From NCBI GenBank assembly GCA_021295775.1, contig JAGWBS010000022.1:1-42660 (forward strand): a stretch of 42,660 nucleotides of DNA. The letters are read 5' to 3'. The notes under the pieces were generated by a model. That model was given only the letters and a program-made list of their open reading frames with translations. It had not been told where the DNA came from and did not search any database. Shown here in pieces: positions 14,592 through 16,726 of this stretch (positions are counted from its first letter, which is position 1; each line of letters opens with the position of its first letter). This stretch comes from Pseudomonadota bacterium (GTDB taxonomy: Bacteria > Myxococcota_A > UBA9160 > SZUA-336). Position numbers and translations under genes: made by a program.

Positions 14592-14641
14592 GCGGGGAGC
14601 GCCGCTCGACCGCTGGCGGCGGAAGGGAAAAGAGACGACGA

Positions 14642-14690
14642 CTCAATCCCGAGCGGCCCGGGGAAACCCCCGGGGCCGTCGGGGATCGAG
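14642..14690. terminator. Bidirectional hairpin terminator between purL and the repeat lipoprotein gene
   Basis: A GC-rich inverted repeat spans the convergent gap. Arms of about 20 bases (CTC-A-ATCCCGAGCGGCCCGGGG and its near-complement ending CGGGGATCGAG) enclose a short A/C loop around 14664-14667. There is no long T-run, but its position between two converging stop codons supports termination in both directions. Confidence 0.7.
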
Positions 14691-14700
14691 TCGGTTCGTC

Positions 14701-15024
14701 TTATTCTTCGGCGGCAGCCTCTTCGGCGCCGTCGTCCGCTCCGGCGTCGTCCGTCGCTTCGGCCTCGTCCATGGCTTCCGCGTCGTCCATCGCTTCGGCC
14801 TCGTCCATGGCCTCCGCGTCGTCCATCGCCTCGGCCTCGTCCATCGCCTCCGCGTCGTCCATCGCTTCGGCCTCGTCCATGGCCTCCGCGTCGTCCATCG
14901 CCTCGGCCTCGTCCATCGCTTCGGCTTCCATGCCGCTCTCGGCGGGATCAGGCGCCGAGGCGTCTTCGCCGGCGCCGCAAGCCGCGAGACCGAGCACCAG
15001 TCCAAGACAGATCCATCGATTCAT
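14701..15024 (-). CDS. Acidic hexapeptide-repeat lipoprotein
   Basis: No family was recognised. The 107-residue product has a lipoprotein signal: Met-Asn-Arg, a hydrophobic core, and lipobox LAAC with Cys16 as the lipidation site. Residues 35-94 are ten hexapeptides alternating EAMDEA and EAMDDA, with only the last unit deviating (EATDDA). An acidic tail follows (GADDGAEEAAAEE). The mature protein has almost no basic residues and would be a highly negative, probably helical or extended surface or periplasmic chain. The ATG at 15024 has GAGGA upstream. The neighbours are a small secreted protein gene (same strand) and purL (convergent). A role in ion or metal binding is only a guess. Repeat number may vary between strains. 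Confidence 0.8.
   Translation of the reverse strand: MNRWICLGLVLGLAACGAGEDASAPDPAESGMEAEAMDEAEAMDDAEAMDEAEAMDDAEAMDEAEAMDDAEAMDEAEAMDDAEAMDEAEATDDAGADDGAEEAAAEE
14743..14922 (-). repeat. In-frame tandem repeat, five 36-bp units (ten 18-bp half units)
   Basis: The coding DNA for residues 35-94 of the lipoprotein is a tandem array in which each 36-bp unit encodes EAMDEA-EAMDDA. Third-position changes (GAA/GAG, GCC/GCG) show some divergence between units. Such an array can expand or contract by slippage or recombination without breaking the frame. Confidence 0.9.
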
Positions 15025-15171
15025 GGCATTCCTCGTTCAGACGTGAAAGGTGTTTCGTCCCTAGTGTCTGCGGCTCTCCGTGGTCACCGCCGGACGCAGC
15101 TTATCACGCGGCGCGGAACAGGCAAATGCACTAGATGCATCTTCTTTTCTCCCGGGTTTCGCCGCTCGAAA

Positions 15172-15564
15172 TCAATAGCTCCAGCGGCTGCCATCGAAGG
15201 GAAAGATCTCCATCACCTCGACGGTCTCGATCACCCAGGGCTCGCTGATCCGCGCCCGGATGGGGTCGATGCCCTGCTTGCGGTAGCGAAATTCGCGGTA
15301 CACCAGCATCCCGACCGTGCGCTTGCCCGGCTGCACGCGTTCCCGCGTCTTACACGAAAGTGGGGCGCGGCCGTAACCCGTGTATTCACCGACGGTCCAG
15401 CCGGCGCTGCTCTTCATCTTCATCTGGCGCAGGTTGTGCGCCTCGCGCCGTTCGAGCTTGCGCATCCACTCGGCGCAGAAACGCTCGAAATCCCCGGCGT
15501 CCGGCGCGCTCGCGATTCCGAGCGCCAGCGCGGCACAGGCGATGATTGCGGCGGGGGGCTTCAT
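15172..15564 (-). CDS. Small secreted protein of unknown function
   Basis: Not recognised. The 130-residue product starts at ATG 15564 with a signal peptide (Met-Lys-Pro-Pro, then a hydrophobic alanine-rich core ending ALGIASA) predicted to be cut near residue 20. The mature part has a charged helix (ERFCAEWMRKLERREAHN) and then beta-like segments ending in VMEIFPFDGSRWSY. Two cysteines in the mature part (Cys29 and Cys70) could form a disulfide in the periplasm. No clear Shine-Dalgarno sequence precedes the ATG. It precedes the repeat lipoprotein on the same strand with a 147-base gap, so the two may or may not be co-transcribed. Confidence 0.7.
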   Translation of the reverse strand: MKPPAAIIACAALALGIASAPDAGDFERFCAEWMRKLERREAHNLRQMKMKSSAGWTVGEYTGYGRAPLSCKTRERVQPGKRTVGMLVYREFRYRKQGIDPIRARISEPWVIETVEVMEIFPFDGSRWSY

Positions 15565-15877: not shown

Positions 15878-16726
15878 ATGCGCAAATCGAGCTGGCTCGC
15901 GCTGGCGAGCAGCCTCGCTCTGGTACTGAGCGGGTGCGCCACCACGGCTTCCGGACCGGGCAGCGGCACGGCCTGCGCGGTGATCGGTGCGATCGCCGGC
16001 GGCGCGGCCGGCGGCGCCGCGGGAGGCGTCGATGGCAAGAGCGAGCGGGGAATGGCCATCGGGGCGGTCGGCGCCATTCTGGGCGGCTACATCGGCAATC
16101 ATCTCTGCTACGTCAATGCGGAGCCGACGGCGCGCATCAGCGCCGAGCCGACCTCGGGCGACGCGCCGCTGGAAGTCGCGTTCCGCGGCGCCGGCAACGA
16201 CGTCGACGGGCGGATCCTGAGCTACCAATGGGATTTCGGAGACGGTGCGTCCTCCAGCGAACAGCACCCGACCCACACCTACAGCGCGGCCGGCAGCTAC
16301 ACCGCGCGCCTGACGGTCGCGGACGACGAAGAAGGCATCGGATCCAGCGAGATCCAGATCTCGGTCACGGATCCCCCGCCTCCGCCCCCGCGACGGATCG
16401 TGCTGCGCGGGGTCCAGTTCAGCTTCGACTCGTCCGCGATCAGCGACGAGTCCGAGGGGATCCTGGCCGTGGCCGTACAGACGTTGATGGAGAACCCCGA
16501 CGTCCAGATCCGGATCTCCGGCCACACCGACTACACGGGTCCGGAGGCCTACAACCAGAAGCTGTCCGAGCGGCGCGCGCAGGCCGTGCTCGACAACCTG
16601 GTCGCCGCCGGAGTCGACGCCGGGCGCCTGACGGCCGTTGGCTTCGGCGAGAGCCAGCCCATCGCCGACAACGGCACGCGCGACGGCCGCGCGCAGAATC
16701 GCCGCGTCGAACTGAACCAGCGCTGA
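15878..16726 (+). CDS. Lipoprotein with glycine-zipper, PKD and OmpA domains
   Basis: This 282-residue outer-membrane lipoprotein has signal MRKSSW, a hydrophobic core and lipobox LSGC (Cys20). A glycine-zipper segment follows (about residues 30-70, AIAGGAAGGAAGG). A PKD domain follows at about residues 86-165, with the hallmark YQWDFGDG and the HTYSAAGSYTARL strand. After a proline run comes a C-terminal OmpA-like peptidoglycan-binding domain with ISGHTDYTG and LSERRAQAVLDNL, ending in NRRVELNQR. It probably anchors the outer membrane to peptidoglycan. An in-frame ATG at 15854 exists, but the start at 15878 has a better site (AGGAG) and gives a proper signal peptide. Confidence 0.92.
   Translation: MRKSSWLALASSLALVLSGCATTASGPGSGTACAVIGAIAGGAAGGAAGGVDGKSERGMAIGAVGAILGGYIGNHLCYVNAEPTARISAEPTSGDAPLEVAFRGAGNDVDGRILSYQWDFGDGASSSEQHPTHTYSAAGSYTARLTVADDEEGIGSSEIQISVTDPPPPPPRRIVLRGVQFSFDSSAISDESEGILAVAVQTLMENPDVQIRISGHTDYTGPEAYNQKLSERRAQAVLDNLVAAGVDAGRLTAVGFGESQPIADNGTRDGRAQNRRVELNQR

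Follow-up and report, generated by a model that had tools for sequence, protein, structure and literature searches.

A lineage-specific acidic lipoprotein bearing ten tandem hexapeptides, and an array-less lipoprotein at the same locus in a same-genus genome

The acidic repeat protein (arp) of Treponema pallidum carries acidic tandem repeats whose number is variable. MrpX and BcrX, the MXKDX repeat proteins, are small methionine-rich repeat proteins of the envelope (PMC8315932), and the anionic low-complexity domain of LbpB is described as helical without a rigid fold and as condensing with cationic peptides (PMC11022072). Here we describe a gene from a Pseudomonadota bacterium (assembly GCA_021295775.1, contig JAGWBS010000022.1; the 42,660-nucleotide stretch analysed is referred to hereafter as the window) whose product is a real and unusual, lineage-specific repeat lipoprotein without a known family.

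The gene runs on the minus strand from an ATG at 15024 to a stop at 14701 and encodes 107 amino acids, arranged as a signal peptide, a lipobox, a short linker, ten hexapeptides and an acidic tail. A sequence-only reading of this DNA had placed it at exactly these coordinates; the strand is our addition. The features of the gene itself are as follows:

14701–15024, minus strand: acidic repeat lipoprotein gene (open reading frame with ATG, signal peptide and lipobox; array differences mostly synonymous in frame)
15030–15034, minus strand: Shine–Dalgarno-like GAGGA, 5 bases 5′ of the ATG (read by eye from the sequence)
14980–15024, minus strand: putative signal peptide, residues 1–15, MNRWICLGLVLGLAA (from the sequence and the lipobox rule)
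14977–14988, minus strand: lipobox L13-A14-A15-C16, followed by Gly17 (from the sequence)

Bacterial lipoboxes follow the rule [LVI][ASTVI][GAS]C. The LAAC at residues 13–16, as read from the sequence, fits this rule and bears out the lipoprotein signal claimed in the earlier reading. The mature chain from Cys16 comprises 92 residues (30 Ala, 22 Glu, 19 Asp and 10 Met) with no Lys, Arg or His and with a single cysteine, Cys16, the presumed lipidation site; the computed net charge is approximately −41 at pH 7, in keeping with the very acidic chain that had been described. Lipidation is plausible: LolA is present in the source genome, and Lgt, which was not found in that 89% complete genome, was found in all seven relatives tested, so the gap is probably one of assembly incompleteness. 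The vicinity of the gene showed no sigma-70-like promoter, a result that says little at the G+C of this DNA.

The central feature of the protein is the array, in which the ten hexapeptides of EAMDEA/EAMDDA type fall at residues 35–94, as had been read earlier:

14743–14922, minus strand: array of ten hexapeptides, residues 35–94: five EAMDEA, four EAMDDA and one EATDDA (TRF and in-frame reading)
14851–14922, minus strand: first 72-bp half, residues 35–58 (71 of 72 bases identical to the adjoining 72 bp)
14779–14850, minus strand: second 72-bp half, residues 59–82 (1 of 72 bases different from the first half)

Methionine occurs in nine of the ten units, the single EATDDA being the exception, and the mature protein contains eight methionine pairs at a spacing of six, a number reached in none of 20,000 shuffles. 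TRF reports the array at a period of 18 (score 245) and again at a period of 36 (score 312, 93% matches), these being the top two scores in the window. The structure of the array is hierarchical (18, 36 and 72 bp): the fourth 36-mer repeats the second without a change, and variation among the five 36-mers is confined to five columns, four of which are third codon positions. This pattern is what stepwise doubling leaves, and local duplication of the DNA would seem to have enlarged the array. The near-identity of the 72-bp halves, together with the identical second and fourth 36-mers, makes the last step look fairly recent, such that the earlier verdict of "not a very recent expansion", drawn from the synonymous differences between units, holds for the earlier steps and fails for the last. 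The assembly has 99 contigs, this one among them, and an estimated completeness of 89%, and the exact copy number may therefore be an assembly estimate; the possibility of an artefact, raised in the same reading, stands to that extent, although the units are non-identical and a simple assembly loop is thus unlikely.

Across the array all six reading frames lack a stop, so openness gives no support for any of them, and two other frames overlap it (120 aa on the minus strand, 367 aa on the plus strand). That another frame might be the true gene, or that the array might be an artefact, is nonetheless extremely improbable given how the units differ. Comparing the five 36-mers pair by pair gives 26 base differences. 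In the lipoprotein frame 22 of them are synonymous (11 of 11 if the last 36-mer is left out), whereas in the other five frames between 0 and 16 are synonymous, with 16 in the nearest rival; expressed the other way, 4 differences are non-synonymous in the lipoprotein frame against 10 to 26 elsewhere. The lipoprotein frame is, moreover, alone among the frames in starting with a signal peptide and lipobox. This uniqueness, and the mostly synonymous character of the differences, supports the lipoprotein frame as the coding frame, and because most unit differences are silent in it the acidic sequence looks maintained.

The surroundings of the gene provide two anchors for comparison with relatives:

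14633–14701, no strand assigned: long hairpin separating the convergent purL and lipoprotein genes, probably a terminator for both (located by folding)
15172–15564, minus strand: conserved gene for a 130-aa protein, upstream of the lipoprotein gene; synteny anchor (no Pfam or NCBIfam match)
15878–16726, plus strand: divergent gene for a lipoprotein that has PKD and OmpA domains and scores weakly for a glycine zipper; the second synteny anchor

The convergent purL matches its NCBIfam model with 2015 bits. The hairpin (an 81-nt stretch, −52.2 kcal/mol, z −6.6) was matched in stability by none of 200 shuffles, and is a probable bidirectional terminator for the purL and lipoprotein transcripts. 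Homologues of the 130-aa gene occur in 13 of the 39 genomes searched (the source genome counted in), and 9 of the family's 11 genomes have one; eight of these nine family loci have approximately 1.5 kb of readable sequence downstream, the ninth 71 bases only. Reading by eye, we found a small acidic lipoprotein 3′ of the 130-aa gene at two of the eight (in the source genome and in G001, of the same genus) and none at the other six family loci or at four loci outside the family. In both genomes that have the pair, it is flanked by the divergent OmpA/PKD lipoprotein gene. We also observe that the OmpA/PKD gene stays near the 130-aa gene in several relatives. In G001 purL lies some 18 kb further along the same contig, in the same relative orientation as in the window, a spacing that would fit one insertion or deletion.

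The genus has one further genome, G001, and the product of the G001 gene at this position, on the same strand, is a 115-aa acidic, Ala-rich, helix-predicted lipoprotein without the array. The lipoprotein start follows the 130-aa gene by 155 bases in G001 and by 153 in the window, as counted with the same script. The mature counterpart has 97 residues, of which 15 are Asp, 15 Glu and 3 Met, and the words AMDEA and EAMDDA are each present in it once; its sharing of methionine-containing five-letter words with the array was equalled in 403 of 500,000 shuffles of the mature counterpart, in a test chosen after the sequences were seen. The intergenic and upstream DNA is not conserved between the two loci, and a HMMER search of the source genome with the counterpart did not recover the window gene even at E 10. 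An alignment of the N-termini was rejected as proof of orthology: it scored 51, and of 28 other lipobox candidates three scored higher (the best four of these candidates had entered the set as matches to the query). On synteny and word content, then, the two genes are likely, but not proven, positional orthologues. Absence from relatives, which the earlier reading had named, together with a lack of transcription, as a finding that would count against it, is thus true of the array in every relative searched and is not true of the locus, which holds an array-less counterpart. As a separate observation, relative G021 encodes (at L055) an Ala-rich lipoprotein that has a AMDKMQEAADAAGEAA-type helix, scores weakly to Apolipoprotein and is of the same general kind as the G001 counterpart.

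Scans of the window protein against Pfam and NCBIfam at E up to 10 returned nothing above a curated cut-off, in agreement with the earlier "no known family", and the matches below it were composition-like (at best NF040677 in NCBIfam, 20.8 of 770 bits; in Pfam PF20854 only, E 2.7, 8.2 of 59 bits); a PDB sequence search gave one weak chain at E 0.22. A degenerate pattern comprising two hexamers and M[DE][DE] found no stretch in a collection of 84,980 species (from which records very near the window may be omitted) and none in viral contigs, and a protein query of the genome collection gave 77 pattern stretches, none of them confirmed by tblastn (where low-complexity handling may hide true matches). 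Closer to the source, a pattern covering a single hexamer and most of the following one was present in one of 377 genomes of the phylum, namely the source genome, and a class-wide protein search at E 1e-6 matched 2 of 90 genomes, the source genome and one with an unrelated low-complexity frame. Among 97 relatives at E 0.001, nine genomes were matched, the source genome counted in; the other matches were unrelated low-complexity frames or lipoproteins alike mainly in the signal peptide, had no methionine array and were set aside. A DNA search also gave seven distant plasmid records at 67–76% identity (six from Streptomyces, four of the seven over ParB genes), which we read as composition. By sequence search, the array is lineage-specific, occurring in one genome of all those searched.

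Other short-period arrays came to light in the course of these comparisons. Relatives G011 and G052, of genus g10, contain long open frames with arrays built from a 12-residue unit of type EAQDRAQAQRQG (at L010, in a minus-strand frame, and at L004); this is another period-6/12 array, unrelated in sequence to that of the window. G011 also encodes, on the plus strand of L013, a protein that is subtilisin-like by its translation and has approximately nine GIEPRR hexapeptides near its C-terminus, and in G033 (L008) a frame with some ten VEVADQ-type hexapeptides runs up to the contig end.

The array might be a near-neutral expansion, a minisatellite tolerated in a non-essential acidic lipoprotein that has gained no new function from it. 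Its restriction to one genome of all searched, the recent 72-bp duplication and the occurrence of unrelated short-period arrays in other genomes of the phylum are what such an expansion would leave, whereas the mostly synonymous differences in frame speak against it, with the proviso that recent copying could also leave few changes. We regard this explanation as somewhat unlikely.

We instead favour, tentatively, a reading in which the gene is an array-expanded acidic lipoprotein that acts as a membrane-tethered polyanion. By origin it would descend, in this lineage alone, from a gene for a small, acidic, helix-prone lipoprotein rich in Ala, in which one word was amplified: a codon-aligned 18-bp word (EAMD[E/D]A) would have been enlarged by in-frame tandem duplication, from 18 to 36 to 72 bp. 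The product would be exported, lipidated at Cys16 and probably placed in the outer membrane, displaying some 90 residues of polyanion, helical or partly disordered. Its action would be most likely by bulk charge, as a non-specific buffer or concentrator of cations near the membrane (divalent metals, cationic peptides or proteins, and polyamines being candidates) or as a charged spacer, with the repeat number setting chain length and charge. The array, the frame, the duplication pattern and the same-locus counterpart are the observations from which this reading starts; lipidation, localisation and orthology are steps that we infer, and the polyanion function is a conjecture, with the anionic low-complexity domain of LbpB as its precedent.

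Structure prediction is compatible with such a chain. AlphaFold2, run on the single sequence of the window protein, returns one helix at residues 27–104 with a mean pLDDT of 64 (low confidence), and for the G001 counterpart one long helix at pLDDT 87.7. Single-sequence models of low-complexity chains tend toward helix, so the window model is weak, and with 41 acidic and no basic residues the chain is likely helical only when its charge is screened or bound. On an ideal helix a methionine at every sixth residue (successive methionines 240° apart) would occupy three faces 120° apart, and this speaks against either a single hydrophobic stripe or a coiled coil of the ordinary kind.

The dense acidic and methionine side chains also suggest a specific metal-binding lipoprotein, with Cu(I) held by Met and Ca2+ or other divalent ions by Asp/Glu, and the G001 counterpart is weakly like the small metal-binding protein SMBP (PF16785; 23.3 bits against a cut-off of 29). 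That score, however, stands beside equally weak sub-cut-off scores to Apolipoprotein and YtxH, which points to composition; the window chain itself does not match SMBP, lacks histidine and has as its sole cysteine the presumed lipidation site, and no metal genes occur among the neighbours examined. Specific metal binding is consequently unlikely in our view.

A further rival would make the spaced methionines a sacrificial sink, scavenging hypochlorite or other envelope oxidants and being recycled by MsrP/MsrQ, on the model put forward for MrpX and BcrX (PMC8315932). The mature chain does have 10 Met in 92 residues, and the source genome has an MsrP match far above cut-off (467.9 bits) followed by a frame that, read from its translation, looks like MsrQ. 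Against this, the repeat is acidic with a period of six and differs from MXKDX (the window protein had no match to an MXKDX-type NCBIfam model at an E of up to 10), msrP lies on contig C40 and the lipoprotein gene on C4, no methionine-rich repeat frame was seen by eye within 1.5 kb on either side of msrP, MsrP is present in all four genomes tested, three of them without the array, and the G001 counterpart has few methionines. The sink is, in sum, quite unlikely, and the earlier guesses of a metal or methionine-redox role gained no specific support. The regular spacing of the methionines is most simply explained as a side effect of amplifying this one word. A hybrid, in which a tethered polyanionic rod serves as an oxidation-sensitive charge brush (methionine oxidation shifting its helicity and hence its hold on cations or cationic peptides, with repeat number tuning the response), is very improbable.

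The comparison of the window with G001 offers a snapshot of how a low-complexity envelope protein can come about: one species has an ordinary acidic helical lipoprotein, and its closest available relative has a near-perfect hexapeptide array at that locus. Were a polyanion or methionine-redox role true, changing the number of repeats would give evolution a simple way to adjust envelope charge or redox capacity. The interest is modest, since the gene comes from a single assembled genome and what it does is a matter of conjecture.

Set beside known systems, the window protein shares acidic tandem repeats with arp of Treponema pallidum and differs from it in repeat length and sequence. SMBP gives a sub-threshold score for the G001 counterpart and no match for the His-free window protein; Apolipoprotein scores weakly with the counterpart and the G021 protein, and YtxH with the counterpart, all below cut-off and probably by composition. 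MrpX and BcrX differ in period and sequence, and the window protein, unlike them, has a lipobox, has no lysine in its mature chain and is not linked to msrPQ. LbpB of the Neisseriaceae and Moraxellaceae is a large receptor with folded lobes, whereas the window protein is an acidic chain alone; the two are nevertheless alike by description in presenting a low-complexity, anionic, helix-prone and non-rigid region on a lipoprotein (PMC11022072).
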